Source of the DNA: Verrucomicrobiales bacterium | GTDB lineage: Bacteria > Verrucomicrobiota > Verrucomicrobiia > Verrucomicrobiales > V1-33 | Direction of reading: 5' to 3' | Length of the DNA: 40,613 bases | Assembly: GCA_028293125.1 (NCBI GenBank) | Contig: JAQGPJ010000095.1 | Location: forward strand, 1 to 40,613 | In this document: positions 19,147 to 30,710 of the stretch, one piece after another | Numbering within the stretch: the stretch's first letter is position 1 | Layout: the number at the start of each line of letters is the position of its first letter | Made by a program: the position numbers and the translations under genes | The notes under the pieces: model-generated | The model's input: the letters and a program-made list of their open reading frames with translations, nothing else | What the model was told of the DNA's origin: nothing | The model's database searches: none

Positions 19147-19409
19147 GGCTGAGGCTTATCTAAAATTGCCCCCCGCGAATGCAAGAGGATGAAACCAGCC
19201 TCCGCACATCCTTTTCCGCCGGGCAGTGCAATTTCGAACCGCAGGATGATACGCGGCGCACCAGCGGCCGGATGGGGAACTGACTCCGTTTTCCATCCTG
19301 AGGAGCCCGGCACGGCTCTTCCGTCTTTGCAAAAAGCTGTTTTGATTCCCACTCCCGCCGCTTCCGGGGAAAACCATCTCCTTGGACCTGCTGACTGGAA
19401 AAAGGGAGG

Positions 19410-19482
19410 TGGCCCGAGACGGATTTGAACCGCCGACACGTGGATTTTCAATCCACTGCTCTACCAACTGAGCTATCGGGCC
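19410..19482 (-). tRNA. tRNA-Phe (anticodon GAA)
   Basis: On the minus strand the cloverleaf is complete: acceptor GGCCCGA pairs with TCGGGCC, the D-arm is GCTCAGTTGGTAGAGC, and the anticodon stem GTGGA/TCCAC encloses the loop TTGAAAA with GAA. The T-arm is GGCGG-TTCAAAT-CCGTC. The discriminator is A and the following bases are CCT, so the 3' CCA is not encoded. It lies upstream of sdhC on the same strand. Confidence 0.97.
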
Positions 19483-20203: not shown

Positions 20204-22504
20204 ATGCCCGGCTCTGAAACCTCCGAGAACGTTCCGCTGCTGCCAGCCCCGCCGCCATCCTCCCCGGATCACACTGCGGAAATGCCAGGGAAGGAGATGG
20301 ACAATTTTGTGCCGCCCCATGGACACCACCGGCAGCCGGTGGTGGGCTTGGGAGGCTCGGCGGGGGCACTGCAGGAGGAGCTGGAGCAGACCCGCCAGGG
20401 GCTGCGCGACACCGAGGAGCAGCACCGGGCCTCCATCGAGGAGATGAAGGCCGGCAGCGAGGAGCTGCAGACTGTCAACCAGGAGCTCAAAAGCCACGTG
20501 GATGAACTCAGCCAGAGCAACACTGACCTGCGGAACCTTATGGCGGCCACGGATATCGCCACCGTGTTTCTTGACCGCGACCTGCGCATCAAGCACTACA
20601 CGCCCAGCGCGGCCACCCTTTTTAATTTCATCCCCGGCGATTTGGGCCGTCCGCTCCTTGATCTGACCCACCGGCTGGATTATCCAAGTATCGACGCCGA
20701 CGCGCACCAGGTGCTGGAGACCCTCGCCCCCGCGGAGCGGGAGGTGCAGGCGGGGGATCGCTGGTATCTGGCCAGACTTCAGCCTTGCCGCACCGTGGAG
20801 GACGGCATCGGGGGCGTGGTGCTCACCTTTGTGGACATCACCGAGCGCCGGGCGGCGGAGGAGAGACTAAGGCTGAACGAGCAGTGCCTCCGCAGCCTGG
20901 TGGAATCGCATGCGCAGGCGGTCTGGGAAACCGACCCTGCGGGGCTGATGGTGAAAGACTGCCCCTCCTGGCGGGCTTGCACCGGGCAGAGTTTCGAGGA
21001 ATGGACCGGCAGCGGCTGGTTGAATGCGGTGCACCCTGATGACCGGGAATATGCCGGCCATCAATGGCGGAAGGCGGTGGAAGCGCAGCGGAATGTCAAT
21101 ACGGAGTTCCGTCTGCGGCATGCGGAAAGCGGCGGCTGGCGCTGGATTAACACACGTGCCTCGCCCATACTTTCCCCGGAGGGGACGGTCCTGAAATGGA
21201 GCGGTATGAGCATCGATATCCACGCCCGCAAGGAAACGGAGGAGGCGATGGCGGCGGATTTGCTCGCCATGCAGGTGCTGCGCGAACTCGGCATGCGGCT
21301 GATTCCGGAAACGGAGATTCCATCCTTTTACGCGGAGGTGAATGCGGCAGCCATCCAATTCACCGGCGCGGACGCGGGAACAGTGCAGATTTCCGATCCC
21401 CACACCGGTGAACTGGTCATGCTGGCCAGCCACGGTTTCCCACCCGGCCACCAGGAGCGTTTCAGCCGTATGAATGCCACCGGCATCACTCTCTGCGGGA
21501 TGGCGTTGGCATCGGAGCAGAGGACTGTCATTGATTTTGACGATTCAAACCTGGAGGATCCTGAAGGAAACCTGCGCTGGCACGTGGAGGCCGGGTATCT
21601 CTCCGCGCAGTCCACACCCCTGCTGACCCGGTCCGGCAGGCCCATCGGCATGATCTCCACCCACTGGCGCACCCGCCGCCGTCTGACGGACCGGGAGAGC
21701 CGTCATCTGGATCTGCTGGCGCGGCAGGCGGCGGATGTCATTGAGCAGCGCCAGGCCTTCACGGAGATCCAGGCCGCGCATCAGGAGGTGGAGAGCGCAG
21801 GCCGGGCCAAGGACCACTTTCTGGCAGTCCTGAGCCATGAACTGCGCACGCCGCTCACTCCGGTGCTGCTGGCTCTGGATCATATTCTGCACGGGGATTC
21901 CTCTTTGACGCCGTTCATGCGCGGATCGCTGGAGATGGCCCTGCGCAATGTCGGGCTGCAGGTGCAGCTGATTGATGACCTGCTGGACATGACCCGCATC
22001 ACCCAGGGAAAGCTGGAAATTGCGCGCTGCCGGACGGATGTGCACAAAGTTTTGGAGAAGACGCTGGAAATCTGCCAGCCCGATCTGCTGGCTAAAAGAC
22101 ACCATCCGGAAGTGGACACCGCAGCGCCTGCCCATTGGCTGGAGGGCGATGCCACACGCCTGCTGCAGCTGTTCTGGAATCTGATCAAAAACGCCTGCAA
22201 GTTCACACCGCCGGGCGGCACTGTCAGCCTTGCCTCACGCAATCCCCGGCCGGGAGTGATCGAAATAACGGTCACAGACACCGGCATGGGGATAAAACCG
22301 GAGGCGCTGGAGCGTATCTTCGAACCGTTCACCCAGGCGGACAGCCAGGTGGGCAGGAGGTTTGGCGGGCTCGGGCTGGGACTGGCCATCTGCAAAGCCA
22401 TCACGGAAGCTCACAAAGGCACCCTGCGCGCAGATAATAGCGGGACTGGAAAAGGCGCGGTTTTCACCGTCACCCTGCCAGTGCTTCCGGTTGACGAACC
22501 CTGA
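20204..22504 (+). CDS. PAS/GAF histidine kinase with a remnant CheB N-terminus (internal domain deletion)
   Basis: This is a cytoplasmic sensor histidine kinase of 766 residues. Residues 45-57 (PVVGLGGSAGALQ) match the first strand and active-site loop of a CheB methylesterase domain. The sequence then passes directly into a coiled coil (about 58-110: EELEQTRQGL, EELQTVNQELK) that in full-length relatives comes after both CheB and CheR. Next are a PAS domain (about 112-215, VFLDRDLRIKHYTPSA), a second PAS (about 225-342, HPDDREYAG), a GAF domain (about 355-515), HisKA with His545 in SHELRTPLTP, and an HATPase with N (NLIKNACKF), G1 (DTGMGI) and G2 (GGLGLGLAI) boxes. No membrane segment or receiver domain is present. 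It closely parallels the large kinase at 24792, so it is probably a shortened paralogue whose partner regulator is unknown. Confidence 0.93.
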   Translation: MPGSETSENVPLLPAPPPSSPDHTAEMPGKEMDNFVPPHGHHRQPVVGLGGSAGALQEELEQTRQGLRDTEEQHRASIEEMKAGSEELQTVNQELKSHVDELSQSNTDLRNLMAATDIATVFLDRDLRIKHYTPSAATLFNFIPGDLGRPLLDLTHRLDYPSIDADAHQVLETLAPAEREVQAGDRWYLARLQPCRTVEDGIGGVVLTFVDITERRAAEERLRLNEQCLRSLVESHAQAVWETDPAGLMVKDCPSWRACTGQSFEEWTGSGWLNAVHPDDREYAGHQWRKAVEAQRNVNTEFRLRHAESGGWRWINTRASPILSPEGTVLKWSGMSIDIHARKETEEAMAADLLAMQVLRELGMRLIPETEIPSFYAEVNAAAIQFTGADAGTVQISDPHTGELVMLASHGFPPGHQERFSRMNATGITLCGMALASEQRTVIDFDDSNLEDPEGNLRWHVEAGYLSAQSTPLLTRSGRPIGMISTHWRTRRRLTDRESRHLDLLARQAADVIEQRQAFTEIQAAHQEVESAGRAKDHFLAVLSHELRTPLTPVLLALDHILHGDSSLTPFMRGSLEMALRNVGLQVQLIDDLLDMTRITQGKLEIARCRTDVHKVLEKTLEICQPDLLAKRHHPEVDTAAPAHWLEGDATRLLQLFWNLIKNACKFTPPGGTVSLASRNPRPGVIEITVTDTGMGIKPEALERIFEPFTQADSQVGRRFGGLGLGLAICKAITEAHKGTLRADNSGTGKGAVFTVTLPVLPVDEP

Positions 22505-22573: not shown

Positions 22574-22621
22574 ATTGCAACAAAGCCATGGCAGATTGCA
22601 ACAAAGCCATGGCAGATTGCA
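22574..22621. repeat. 21-bp tandem repeat, two perfect copies plus a partial
   Basis: The unit ATTGCAACAAAGCCATGGCAG occurs at 22574-22594 and again at 22595-22615, followed by ATTGCA (22616-22621). Each copy contains the palindrome GCCATGGC. It lies between the kinase and the small gene at 22728, where it could be a regulator-binding array or replication slippage. Confidence 0.85.
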
Positions 22622-22727
22622 TGATATGGTGTCCCTGAATCGAGTTTTTCCCCCATAGTTTCAGCTAAACACCTTCCGGCAAGGTTTCCGCTATGCAATC
22701 CATGGCTCTTAATAAAAAATTCACCTT

Positions 22728-24791: not shown

Positions 24792-27700
24792 ATGAGCGAT
24801 GCTGCCCGTCCTCCCCGGAGAAAGTCCAACCGTGGCAAAAAGCCAGAGTCCTCCGGAAAAATTGATTCTCCTCCTCCGGCTTCCCCGGATGCCGGGGAGC
24901 AGATGACCGCATACAATGGGGACCTGCTCAGCTATCAAACGCTGCCGGTGGTGGCCCTTGGAGGGTCGGCGGGCAGCATCCAGGCACTAAGGGAGTTTTT
25001 CGCACGCACACCCGCCGTCACCGGCTCCGCCTATGTGGTCATTATGCATTTGGCACCGGGACATGTGAGCATAATGCCCGAGCTGCTTCAGGGACAGACG
25101 GCAATGAAGGTGCAGACTGCGGAGGATTCCACGGAGTTGCAGCCCGACACAGTGTATCTGATTCCGCCTGGCAGTTTCCTGATGGTGAGCGGCAGCCGTC
25201 TCCGCCTCACCGAACTTGAGCCGGAGTATGGCAAGCGTGTGGTGGTGGATCTGTTTTTCCGCTCACTGGCCGATTCCCACGGGCCCCGCGCCACAGCGGT
25301 GGTGCTCAGCGGCATTGACAGCGACGGAGCCATCGGCATCAAGCGGATCAAGGAGCGCGGGGGGCTGACCATCGTGCAGGATCCCCAGGAGGCGGAGTTC
25401 AGCAGCATGCCGAACTCCGCCATCGCCACCGGCATGGTGGACTGGATTCTGCCTGTGGCCATCATGCCGGCCCGCATTCACAGCTACCGCGAGCGGGGGA
25501 CGAGGGTCCAGCTTCCGCCGGAGGAGGGCCCTCAGCCGGGAAAATCCGCTGGACCGGCTCCTGACCATCCCGAGACGCTGCTGCATGAGGTGCTGGTTTT
25601 CCTGCGGATGCGGACCGGGAAGGACTTCAGTCATTACAAGCGCACGGTTTTTCTACATCGTGTTTCACACCGCATGCAGATCAGCGGCATGGAGCATCTG
25701 GCGGACTATCTGAATTATCTGCGGACCTTTCCCGGAGAGGCCGGTGTTCTGGTCCAGGATCTGCTGGTCCCCGCCACCAATTTTTTCCGTGACCGGGAGT
25801 CATTCCAAGTACTGGAATCCCATATCCCGGAGCTTTTCCGGGATAAAAAGCCGGGTGACACGGTGCGGGTCTGGTGCCCGGCCTGCGCCACCGGGGAGGA
25901 GGCTTACTCCATGGCCATCCTTCTGCTGGAGCATGCAGGGAAGCTTGAGGCGCCGCCCATCCTGCAGGTGTTCGGATGCGATCTGAACAAGGAGGCCATT
26001 CAAACCGCGCGGGCCGGGTTTTACCCCGAAACGATAGCGACGGACATCAATGAGGAGCGGCTCCACCGCTTTTTCAGAAAGGAGGACAACGGTTACCGGG
26101 CTCTTCCCGAACTGCGGGAAATGATCCTCTTTGCCGCGCATGATCTTTTGAAGGATGCCCCTTTCTCGCGCATGGATCTTATCTCCTGCCGCAATCTGTT
26201 CATTTATTTCAACCATGATGCCCAGGCCAAAGCGCTGGAGATTTTCCATTTCGCTTTCAGGCCAGGCGGACTTCTGTTTCTGGGTCCTGCCGAAACGCCT
26301 GAGGAGCGGAGCACGCTGTTTCAGCCATTGAACAGCAGGCACCGGCTTTATCAGCAGCGCCCGGCCGAGCGGTACAGGGCTCCCCTGCCCACAGGCCTGA
26401 GCGAGAACACCATCCAGCGGGTGTTCCATGAGCATGAGCGCCTGAAAAAATTTTCGGCCACCCTGCCCGGCCGCTCCTTCACCGCCTGCCCGCCGGCAGT
26501 TGAGGGCGGAATGCGCGCGGGCGGTGACGGCATGGACCGGCTGGATCTGCACTTCAGGCTTTTGGCCCGCTTTGGGCCCCCCTCACTGCTGGTGAATGCG
26601 GACCACGATGTGGTGCATCTTTCGGAGAATGTGCACCCTTTTCTCCAGATTCCGGAAGGGGAACCGACCCGGAGCCTGATGGCCCTGGTCCATCCCATGC
26701 TCCGTCTCCATTTGCGGGCGGGTCTGCTGCGGGCTGCGGAGACGGGAGAGCCTGTGGAAATTCCGCAGTGTCCCTTGGACCTGCCCGGCGGTCCGGGGAT
26801 GGTCAGCATACGCCTCTTTCCAGGCGGCCGGACAGCCCCCGGCCATCTGCTGATTCTTTTTGAGGCGCACACCGCTGATCCCGCCACCCGGACAGCCACA
26901 GCCGGCTCCGGGCCGCCGCAGGAAACGCTTGGACCGGAAGCGGTGGTGCATCAGCTGGAGCGGGAGGTTGTCCGGCTCAATGCCGACCTGCGGGCCACCG
27001 TGGAACAGTATGAATGCACCAATGAGGAGTTGAAAGCCAGCAATGAGGAGTTGCAAGCCGCCAACGAGGAGTTGCGCAGCGTGGGGGAGGAGCTGGAGAC
27101 CAGCCGGGAGGAGCTGCAGAGCATCAATGAAGAGCTCACGACCCTTAATGAGGAGTTCCGCAACCGTGCCGAGGAGCTGGCAAGTGCCAACTCCGATCTG
27201 CTGAATCTGATGAATGCCACCCGGATCCCCACGGTGTTTCTGGACCGAGGACTGCAGGTGATGCGCTATACCCCCTCCGCGGCCCCTCTTTTCAATTTCA
27301 TTTCCGGCGATGTGGGCCGTCCAATCACCCACCTTAGGCGACGGCCGCACTATCCGGAAATGCCCAGTGATGCCGGGCAGGTGCTGCGCACGCTGGAGCC
27401 GGTGGAGCGGGAAATCCAGGACGGAGAGCGCTGGCTGCTGGCGCGGGTGATGCCCTACCGCACGGTGGAGGACCGTATTGCCGGCGTGGTGCTGAGCTTT
27501 GTGGACATCACCGCGCGGCGGAATGCGGAGATGGCATTGCGGCGCAGTGAGGAGATGTTCTCCGCCCTGATCGAAAATGCCCCGTTCGGAGTTTACCTCG
27601 TGGATTCCCGATTCCATCTGTGCACCGTCAATGCCGGCTCCCGCGCCATGTTCCAAGGCATCGAGCCGCTTATCGGACGTGATTTCAGTGAAATCCTGCG

Positions 27701-30209
27701 CATTGTCTGGGCGGAGCCCTTTGCCAGTAAAGCCCTGGCCCGGTTCCGCCACACGCTGGAAACCGGGGAAGCCTATATTTCCCCCCCCACCACGGAGGCG
27801 CGCGCCAATGTGGATGAGACGCAGTCCTACGACTGGCAGATCCACCGCGTGGCTCTGCCGGACGGCAGTCACGGCGTGGTCTGCTATTTCTATGATCTGT
27901 CGGAGCAGAAACGGCTGGAGTCAGCTGTCCACACCCATGCGGAGGAGCTGAGGGCGGTGGCCAACATCGTGCCCGAACTGCTTTGGAGCAGCGGGCCTGA
28001 CGGTGAAATGGTCTGGTGTAATGACCGCTGGACGGAATACACCGGCCAGCCCCCCGGCGGGGCGGGGGGCCAGGGCTGGGTTGAGGCCATCCACCCGGAT
28101 GATCTTGAAAAATTCACGGCACGCTATCTCGAGGCCGTGCAGGAGGCCCGGAAGCTCCAGCACGTGCAGCGCATCCGCCGTGCGGATGGTGAATACCGTT
28201 GGCATCTGATGCGGGCTGAACCGCTGACGCGGAAGGATGGGAGCCTCATCAAAATGTACGGCGCAGGCACGGACATCCATGATCTGCGCATGGCCACCGA
28301 GAGACTGCGTGAGAGCGAGAACCGCCTGCGCACCCTTGCGGATGCCGTCCCCCAGATCATCTGGACCAACTCCGCCGAGGGCAAAGCGGACTATTTCAAC
28401 CAACGCTGGTATGAGTATTCAGGTTGCTCCTTTGCGGAATCCGCCGGGCTTGGCTGGCAGCTGATCGTGCACCCTGATGACACCCCGCACTCTGTTGCCC
28501 TCTGGGAAAAAGCACTTTTGGAAGGCAGGATTTTTGACTGTGAATACCGACTGAGGAACCAGCAGGGCAACTACCGATGGTTCATTGCCCGCAATGTGCC
28601 GATGAAGAATTCCGAAGGCAGGGTGACCGGCTGGTTTGGCACGGCCACGGATATCCATGATTTGAAAAATGCCGCCTCGGCCCTGCTGCAGAGTGAGGAG
28701 CAGTTCCGCCGCGCGATCGAGGATGCGCCGATCCCGGTGATCATGCATGCGGAGGACGGACAGGTTCTGCAGATCTCCAGAACCTGGACGGAACTGACAG
28801 GCTACATGCCGGAGGACATTCCTACCTTCGATGCCTGGCTGAGCCGTACCTACAGCTCCGGAATGGACAATGTGCGCTCCCGCATGCAGGGCATTTTCGA
28901 AGGTGTCGTGCCAGTGCTGCATGAGGAGCTGAATGTGACCACCGCCTCCGGTGAAATCCGCCGCTGGGCCTTGTCCGCCTCGGCCCCGGGCACCCTGGGG
29001 GATGGGCGGCGCTTTGTGGTGGCCATGGCCTTGGACATCACAGAGCGCATACGGGCGGAAAAGGCGTTGCGTGAAAGTCAGCAGCGGCTGCGGCTGATCC
29101 TGGAGAATGCCCGGGAATACGCCATTTTCTCCTTGGATCCGGACCGGACCATCACCAGTTGGAACACTGGTGCCCAAGCCATTCTGGGCTATACCACGGA
29201 GGAGGCCATCGGACAGTCCGCTGACTGCATCTTCACCCCCGAGGACCGTGAAGCCGGCGTTCCCGTAAAGGAGGCGGTCACCGCTCTCGTCAACGGCAGC
29301 GCCGCTGACGAGCGCTGGCACATCCGCCAGGACGGCAGCCGCTTCTGGGGAAGCGGGTTCATGACCTCCATGCATGACCCCCAGGGTGAGCCGGTTGGCT
29401 TTGTCAAAATATTCCGGGACCGAACCAAGGAGAGAGAGGCCCGGGAAACACTGGAGCAGAATCGTCTGCAGCTCGCGGAGGCGCTGAAAAGCGCCGAGCA
29501 TGCCCGGGCGCAGGCGATTGCCGCCAGCCGGGCCAAGGACCAGTTCCTGGCGGTGCTTTCCCATGAACTGCGCACGCCGCTGACTCCGATTCTGATGGCC
29601 ACCCAGGTGTTGGCGGCCGGTGAAAACCTGCCGCCGAAAGTGCGCAGCACTCTGGCCATGATCGAGCGCAGCGTCCTGGTGGAAATCCAGCTGGTCAACG
29701 ACCTGCTGGATGTGACCAGCATCGCCAACGGCAGAATGGAGGTGGTCCGGGAGCCCATGGATCTGCATGACGCGATCCAGCAGGCCATTGAAATCTCGAG
29801 CCCGGATTTTGAGGCTAAAGACCAGCAGTTCTCAGTGGAGCTGGAAGCCGGGGAATATCAAATCCAGGGCGATTTCCGGCGCCTGCAGCAGGTGGTCTGG
29901 AATCTGCTTAAGAATGCCTCCAAATTCACTCCGAGGGGGGGGGAGATTGAAATTTCCTCCCGCAATGAGCCAGGCCGCATCGTGGTGGATGTCAGGGACA
30001 ACGGCATCGGCTTTGAACCTGACGCGCGGGAGCGCATTTTTACGCCCTTTGAGCAGGAGAGCCGGTCCATCACCCGCCGGCACGGCGGACTGGGCCTCGG
30101 CCTTTCCATTGCCAAAGCCACTGTCGAAGCTCATGGCGGCACTATACGGGCATGGAGCGCCGGACCGGGAACCGGGGCCATGTTCCGGATAGAGCTTCCC
30201 GTGGGTTAA
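24792..30209 (+). CDS. CheB-CheR-multi-PAS hybrid sensor histidine kinase
   Basis: This is a 1805-residue cytoplasmic signalling protein. The ATG at 24792 (MSDAARPPRRKSNRGKK) is chosen because the CheB domain starts soon after. Domains in order: CheB methylesterase (about 51-230) with the triad Ser59 (GGSAGS), His86 (VIMHLAP) and Asp178 (GIDSDGA); CheR methyltransferase (about 262-525) with the SAM motif VRVWCPACATGEEAYSMA; a degenerate PAS-like region (about 590-690); a coiled coil (about 715-800, repeated NEEL); PAS domains at about 802-908, 921-1040, 1050-1165, 1180-1290, 1300-1418 and 1432-1545; HisKA with His1591 (SHELRTPLTP); and HATPase (about 1690-1803, NLLKNAS, DNGIG, HGGLGLGL). CheB and CheR lack a fused receiver. 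A single-domain response regulator starts 76 bases downstream and is the likely phosphate acceptor. No chemoreceptor or flagellar gene is nearby, so a stress or adaptation role is more likely than chemotaxis. Confidence 0.95.
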   Translation: MSDAARPPRRKSNRGKKPESSGKIDSPPPASPDAGEQMTAYNGDLLSYQTLPVVALGGSAGSIQALREFFARTPAVTGSAYVVIMHLAPGHVSIMPELLQGQTAMKVQTAEDSTELQPDTVYLIPPGSFLMVSGSRLRLTELEPEYGKRVVVDLFFRSLADSHGPRATAVVLSGIDSDGAIGIKRIKERGGLTIVQDPQEAEFSSMPNSAIATGMVDWILPVAIMPARIHSYRERGTRVQLPPEEGPQPGKSAGPAPDHPETLLHEVLVFLRMRTGKDFSHYKRTVFLHRVSHRMQISGMEHLADYLNYLRTFPGEAGVLVQDLLVPATNFFRDRESFQVLESHIPELFRDKKPGDTVRVWCPACATGEEAYSMAILLLEHAGKLEAPPILQVFGCDLNKEAIQTARAGFYPETIATDINEERLHRFFRKEDNGYRALPELREMILFAAHDLLKDAPFSRMDLISCRNLFIYFNHDAQAKALEIFHFAFRPGGLLFLGPAETPEERSTLFQPLNSRHRLYQQRPAERYRAPLPTGLSENTIQRVFHEHERLKKFSATLPGRSFTACPPAVEGGMRAGGDGMDRLDLHFRLLARFGPPSLLVNADHDVVHLSENVHPFLQIPEGEPTRSLMALVHPMLRLHLRAGLLRAAETGEPVEIPQCPLDLPGGPGMVSIRLFPGGRTAPGHLLILFEAHTADPATRTATAGSGPPQETLGPEAVVHQLEREVVRLNADLRATVEQYECTNEELKASNEELQAANEELRSVGEELETSREELQSINEELTTLNEEFRNRAEELASANSDLLNLMNATRIPTVFLDRGLQVMRYTPSAAPLFNFISGDVGRPITHLRRRPHYPEMPSDAGQVLRTLEPVEREIQDGERWLLARVMPYRTVEDRIAGVVLSFVDITARRNAEMALRRSEEMFSALIENAPFGVYLVDSRFHLCTVNAGSRAMFQGIEPLIGRDFSEILRIVWAEPFASKALARFRHTLETGEAYISPPTTEARANVDETQSYDWQIHRVALPDGSHGVVCYFYDLSEQKRLESAVHTHAEELRAVANIVPELLWSSGPDGEMVWCNDRWTEYTGQPPGGAGGQGWVEAIHPDDLEKFTARYLEAVQEARKLQHVQRIRRADGEYRWHLMRAEPLTRKDGSLIKMYGAGTDIHDLRMATERLRESENRLRTLADAVPQIIWTNSAEGKADYFNQRWYEYSGCSFAESAGLGWQLIVHPDDTPHSVALWEKALLEGRIFDCEYRLRNQQGNYRWFIARNVPMKNSEGRVTGWFGTATDIHDLKNAASALLQSEEQFRRAIEDAPIPVIMHAEDGQVLQISRTWTELTGYMPEDIPTFDAWLSRTYSSGMDNVRSRMQGIFEGVVPVLHEELNVTTASGEIRRWALSASAPGTLGDGRRFVVAMALDITERIRAEKALRESQQRLRLILENAREYAIFSLDPDRTITSWNTGAQAILGYTTEEAIGQSADCIFTPEDREAGVPVKEAVTALVNGSAADERWHIRQDGSRFWGSGFMTSMHDPQGEPVGFVKIFRDRTKEREARETLEQNRLQLAEALKSAEHARAQAIAASRAKDQFLAVLSHELRTPLTPILMATQVLAAGENLPPKVRSTLAMIERSVLVEIQLVNDLLDVTSIANGRMEVVREPMDLHDAIQQAIEISSPDFEAKDQQFSVELEAGEYQIQGDFRRLQQVVWNLLKNASKFTPRGGEIEISSRNEPGRIVVDVRDNGIGFEPDARERIFTPFEQESRSITRRHGGLGLGLSIAKATVEAHGGTIRAWSAGPGTGAMFRIELPVG

Positions 30210-30284: not shown

Positions 30285-30710
30285 ATGACAACCAATCCTG
30301 CACCGCTGCGCATTTTCCTGTTGGAGGATCACTCCGACACTCTCGCTTACATGATCATGTATTTGGAGCAGCTGGGGCACACCGTGCTTCCGGCAAGCAG
30401 TATAGAGGAGGCGTTGGAGGCCCTGCCCGGAGCGGACTGCGATGTGCTGATTTCCGATGTCGGGCTGCCCGACGGTTTTGGCTGGGATCTGCTGCCGCGC
30501 CTGCAGCTCCGGAGTCCCTTGTATGCCATCGCCATGAGCGGCTTCAACCGGGCGGTCGATATCGCCCAGAGCAAGGCCGCCGGTTTCCACCACCATCTGG
30601 GAAAACCTTTCAATATTCATGAGCTGAACATGGTGCTGGAGGAGGCGCGGAAATTTCTGAAATCCTCTGAAAAGGAATCCTCCGGCAGCACAGTGCCGGA
30701 GGATAAATGA
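30285..30710 (+). CDS. Single-domain response regulator (CheY-like)
   Basis: This is a 141-residue receiver without an output domain. The acidic pocket is Glu14-Asp15 (FLLEDHSD), the phosphorylated residue is Asp58 (ISDVGLPDG), the switch residue is Ser85 (AIAMSGF) and the lysine is Lys107 (LGKPF). Residue 102-104 reads HHH before the lysine loop. The C-terminal 17 residues are polar and flexible. The gene directly follows the CheB/CheR kinase on the same strand and probably takes phosphate from it, and perhaps from the paralogous kinase at 20204, since neither kinase has its own receiver. It acts through protein-protein contacts, target unknown. Confidence 0.94.
   Translation: MTTNPAPLRIFLLEDHSDTLAYMIMYLEQLGHTVLPASSIEEALEALPGADCDVLISDVGLPDGFGWDLLPRLQLRSPLYAIAMSGFNRAVDIAQSKAAGFHHHLGKPFNIHELNMVLEEARKFLKSSEKESSGSTVPEDK

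Follow-up and report, generated by a model that had tools for sequence, protein, structure and literature searches.

Domain organization of the locus

The window analyzed here, a stretch of 40,613 nucleotides, belongs to a genome of 6.5 Mb in 120 contigs. An open reading frame on its forward strand, at positions 20204-22504, codes for a protein of 766 residues that we call W. Two paralogues from the same genome, named after their contigs, serve for comparison: C95 (L009:3037-6906, 1289 residues), with the order CheB-CheR-coil-PAS_10-PAS-HisKA-HATPase, and C13 (L010:3470-5737, 755 residues), which lacks CheB and CheR. The parts of W and the relevant neighboring genes are as follows.

20204..20335, + strand: leader, residues 1-44, disordered (pLDDT 32-36), with the motif MDNFVPPHGH; aligns with the leader of C95 (shuffle test, 0/2000)
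20336..20374, + strand: CheB stub, residues 45-57 (PVVGLGGSAGALQ), first strand and Ser loop, from the alignment with C95 CheB
20369..20374, + strand: junction codons CTG CAG (L56-Q57), from codon comparison of W, C95, and C13
20375..20527, + strand: coiled coil, residues 58-108 (BLASTP, comparison of the coil with relatives, model helix 53-115)
20528..20842, + strand: PAS_10, residues 109-213 (Pfam PF13596, E 3.8e-25, 89 bits)
20963..21205, + strand: second PAS (PAS_3 type), residues 254-334 (Pfam)
21332..21745, + strand: GAF (GAF_2), residues 377-514 (Pfam PF13185)
21806..22009, + strand: HisKA, residues 535-602, with the SHELRTP phospho-acceptor motif (Pfam PF00512, 50 bits, above cut-off)
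22145..22483, + strand: HATPase_c, residues 648-760 (Pfam PF02518, E 1.2e-28, 100 bits, above cut-off)
24792..30209, + strand: neighbor kinase, CheB-CheR-PAS_10-multi-PAS, 1805 residues (Pfam, trees)
30285..30710, + strand: stand-alone receiver, 141 residues, downstream of the neighbor kinase (Pfam PF00072)

As in sensor histidine kinases of the HisKA type, a HisKA domain with the phospho-acceptor histidine is followed in W by HATPase_c. The strong matches of both domains to their families, together with the phospho-acceptor motif, make it probable that W is active as a kinase. The succession of coil and PAS_10 is that of the CheB-CheR-coil-PAS_10 kinases, with which W also groups in trees. 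Pfam gave no match to PF01339 or PF01739 in W, which thus has no complete CheB and CheR, and the whole-genome CheB scan did not report it. The NCBIfam search yielded no family for this architecture; among the matches listed, all were below the cut-off except that of a generic PAS model on the neighbor kinase. Third-position GC is high throughout the open reading frame, stub included.

The stand-alone receiver is the nearest to W among those found, and the genome codes for a single MCP, whose gene is grouped on contig C76 with genes for CheW domains and with a CheB of its own. A tRNA-Phe gene (19408-19482, reverse strand) lies ~720 bases upstream of the W gene, and shortly 3' of its stop codon (22578-22622) there are two tandem copies of a ~21-base unit, GCAACAAAGCCATGGCAGATT.

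A CheB stub at the N terminus

The original prediction read residues 45-57 as the start of a CheB domain including the Ser loop, and the comparison with C95 bears this out. Residues 2-57 of W match residues 12-66 of C95 with 57% identity over 56 residues (pairwise BLASTP, E 8e-15), and a six-frame search of the whole genome recovered the same N terminus of C95 with residues 2-58 (E 3.7e-12). When leader and stub were each shuffled alone, 0 of 2000 shuffles attained the observed score. Conservation is uneven: over VVGLGGSAGALQ in the stub, W and C95 CheB agree at 11 of 12 residues, and in the leader W and C95 agree at 11 of 23. The leader carries a version of a motif specific to this subfamily of CheB-CheR kinases, IDN-VP--GY, that is also seen in L073, L147, L148, L150, L152, L153, and L154, and that sits just before CheB in distant relatives with a full CheB domain (all of these loci except L150).

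The CheB of C95 belongs to Pfam PF01339 and aligns with the solved CheB chains 6ymz and 3sft (1chd was matched as well), so the stub corresponds to the first strand of the domain and its Ser loop, with VVGLGGSAG of W aligned to C95 CheB. In CheB methylesterases, the Ser loop carries the nucleophile, while the active-site His and Asp lie further on. In W, Q57 runs straight into the coil, and both the His/Asp region and any trace of CheR are missing. As Pfam gave no match on residues 1-65, the stub escapes detection by profiles and is recognized through its homology to a paralogue. Judging from these alignments, residues 1-57 are homologous to the leader and the first 13 CheB residues of C95, which disposes of the objection that the segment could be unrelated to CheB. 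In the same genome, L177:2563-2928 (contig C99, ~95562-95928) matches the first 39 positions of the CheB profile before the frame is lost, and looks like a decaying CheB pseudogene.

Structure prediction around the stub had been proposed as a check. In an AlphaFold2 model of W (12 sequences, mean pLDDT 71.8, pTM 0.39), residues 1-52 have pLDDT values below 50 and appear disordered, and a helix running from residue 53 to 115 leads into the coil. In CheB, a helix comes after the Ser loop, so the deletion appears to join helix to helix, and a join of this kind would be easy to tolerate, without thereby showing a function.

The junction and the extent of the probable deletion

BLASTP aligned W with C95 in three collinear pieces that skip CheB and CheR, with residues 56-235 matching C95 720-927 (57%) and residues 511-760 matching C95 1033-1281 (54%). 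The CheB text of C95 (GGSAGSLQ) ends at residue 66, and its coil text (LEGALE) begins at residue 720. Relative to C95, W therefore lacks ~655 residues, with C95 L65-Q66 joined to L720-E721, and the frame remains intact; ~650 residues had first been estimated. In W, L56-Q57 is joined to E58, and the letters common to both sides are CTG CAG / CTG GAG, so that the junction CTG CAG can be read as ..SLQ of CheB and as ..LE of the coil. The coil is also 28 residues shorter than in C95, with the gap between residues 89 and 90 of W; these residues are present in all the CheB-CheR relatives compared, and approximately the same stretch is missing in C13.

At the DNA level, W and C95 share 67% identity in the leader, 75% in the stub, 73% in the coil, 72% in PAS_10, and 66% in HisKA. 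Because both flanks of the junction diverge by ~25-35%, a collapse of W and C95 during assembly is unlikely, and we rejected this explanation, which had been raised as a possible refutation of the domain loss.

Relatives within the genome and origin of the loss

The coil that follows CheB and CheR in the kinase at 24792 had been taken as the model for that of W. The coil does directly follow the stub, although the nearest full-length comparator is C95 rather than the neighbor. The further claim that the rest of W parallels the neighbor is too simple, as a GAF domain is present in W and its PAS domains number only two. Genome searches and trees put the neighbor further from W than C95 and C13, and we discarded it as the parent for this reason.

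No relative is closer to W than C13, which is 67% identical to it in GAF and 65% identical across the kinase region. W and C13 are sisters (99/95), with C95 outside at 96/98, and larger trees agree. The PAS_10, kinase, and combined trees all pair W with C13, and C95 lies next to the pair in the combined, kinase, and large PAS_10 trees. In the last of these, W is joined to C13 at 100/82 and the branch of C13 is very long. C95 and the CheB-CheR relatives around it in the trees retain both domains, so W and C13 show the derived state in having neither. The parent architecture of W is C95-like. The loss of CheB and CheR from a paralogue by internal deletion, as originally proposed, is thus supported.

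The W and C13 kinases have been rebuilt in several places, since their second PAS domains are unrelated and the GAF domain that both contain is missing from C95 (Pfam); in W, the shortening of the coil is a further such change. When the second PAS of W was compared with that of C13, BLASTP found no match except for 16 residues at the end of the domain; that of W matches the PAS repeats of the 24792 neighbor (35% over 121 residues). The second PAS of W is of a different origin from that of C13, a PAS swap between paralogues.

The coil shortening common to W and C13 suggests that the loss preceded their split. C13 has no recognizable CheB stub, and its text before the coil is GKVRRLEEELE, of which the coil start VRRLEEELE resembles the CheB-CheR family; read from the sequence, it could be either the native coil start of the family or a decayed stub. 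This coil start is a hint of possible independent losses in W and in C13, with end points that differ. A third kinase without CheB and CheR, L149, comes from another family of the order, has a full coil and a GAF before the last PAS, and probably lost the domains separately from W and C13. A single loss clade of W, C13, and L149 had a log-likelihood 10 lower and is not favored, though with an AU p of 0.077 it is not formally rejected.

Distribution in other genomes

Whether the stub-coil junction recurs elsewhere had been posed as a check, and the answer was negative: it was seen only in W across 142 relatives, 384 genomes of the class, and 388 genomes of the phylum, three sets that overlap and in which the best candidates alone were scored per genome. 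A scan of genome contigs gave no further junction of this kind, and no ortholog of W was found in 12 other genomes of the family or in the same three sets. Several candidates with short frames (L155, L158, and L163-L169) were dismissed because of frame breaks, contig ends, or a CheR that was still present. L155 (G096) and L158 (G218) have CheB-CheR and coil-PAS in two overlapping frames, with the frame change between CheR and the coil. L165 (G403) is a 467-residue coil-PAS_10-kinase frame near the end of that genome's contig C95, adjoining a separate 621-residue CheB-CheR gene. At L151 (G027, contig C1, reverse strand), a CheB-CheR kinase loses its frame where six T's follow one another, ~ten residues past GLGGSAG, which could be a sequencing error, a mutation, or frameshifting.

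Origin and function of the stub

We consider, with a probability of about 0.75, that W works as a kinase and that an in-frame deletion took away its CheB-CheR front half, leaving the stub as a scar. Under this reading, W would descend from a CheB-CheR-coil-PAS_10 kinase, and the loss would have occurred either on the line leading to W or in the ancestor that W shares with C13. Recombination at the short match CTG CAG / CTG GAG may have removed ~655 codons in frame, beginning just past the Ser loop of CheB and ending where the coil starts. The join would align the start of the first CheB helix with the coil helix, so that the kinase half could still fold. The product would be a soluble sensor histidine kinase (coil, PAS_10, PAS, GAF, HisKA, and HATPase), predicted to dimerize through the coil and to sense through PAS and GAF, with the HisKA histidine autophosphorylated and the phosphate passed to a separate receiver. 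It would have neither esterase nor methyltransferase activity, and the stub would lack a catalytic function, being tolerated in a disordered N terminus that leads into a helix.

The same sequence could have arisen in another way. A C95-like gene might have supplied its 5' end, with promoter, leader, and the start of CheB, to a C13-like kinase that already lacked CheB and CheR, in which case the stub arrived with the captured end and not by deletion in place. Such a recombination yields a sequence identical to that of an in-place deletion, and the leader of W does match C95 strongly and C13 weakly. Moreover, a grouping of W with C95 is not rejected in the PAS_10 half (AU p 0.24), while it is in the kinase half (p 0.015). 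Nevertheless, the large PAS_10 tree still places W with C13, whose very long branch explains, with no need for a crossover, why W seems close to C95, and W and C13 have the shortened coil in common, so we regard this origin as unlikely. An artefact of assembly or sequencing, in which the middle of a real CheB-CheR kinase collapsed, is less probable still. The junction is indeed known from one assembly only, but neither flank is near-identical to C95, C13, on another contig, likewise lacks CheB-CheR and matches W in domain order, and L149 shows a similar absence in a different family.

A different question is whether selection has maintained the 13 residues of the stub since the loss in a new structural or docking role where the coil begins, for example as a helix cap (N-cap) or docking peptide. 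The stub matches C95 better than the leader does, and if the loss predates the split of W and C13, it outlasted ~35% divergence of the kinase domain; its conservation would then point to selection. However, C13 has kept no recognizable stub, a later loss confined to W accounts for the match equally well with no need for selection, and the model shows no fold before residue 53. We find such a role doubtful, and favor the interpretation of the stub as a scar.

Comparison with known systems

The domain loss in W is real, unusually legible, and ordinary in kind. As a rule, clean domain borders are what the loss of a domain from a sensor kinase is deduced from; in W, the end point of the deletion can be read to a precision of one or two codons. 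W resembles the CheB-CheR-coil-PAS_10 kinases (C95, the 24792 neighbor, and those of many genomes of the class) in its leader motif and in the order coil-PAS_10-HisKA-HATPase, and C95 groups in trees as sister to W and C13. Unlike them, W lacks CheB past the first 13 residues, CheR, and 28 residues of the coil, and it has a GAF that is missing from C95. With C13 and L149, it shares the lack of CheB and CheR and the presence of coil, PAS_10, GAF, and a C-terminal kinase, but neither of them keeps a CheB stub; C13 differs further in its unrelated second PAS, and L149 in its full coil and in the position of GAF before the last PAS. Compared with the CheB methylesterases (PF01339; 1chd, 6ymz, and 3sft), W has the motif of the first strand and Ser loop and nothing past the first 13 residues, the active-site His and Asp included.

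The coexistence of full (C95), stubbed (W), and stub-free (C13) paralogues in one genome is a small natural experiment on whether the kinase half needs the CheB and CheR halves, and suggests that these large kinases can shed them. We found no report in the literature of CheB-CheR loss from this kinase architecture. In myxobacteria, two-component kinases have lost and then gained input domains (PMC4603909), and the kinases described here likewise differ by loss and gain of such domains. W differs from the myxobacterial cases in that a partial domain still marks the end point of its deletion.
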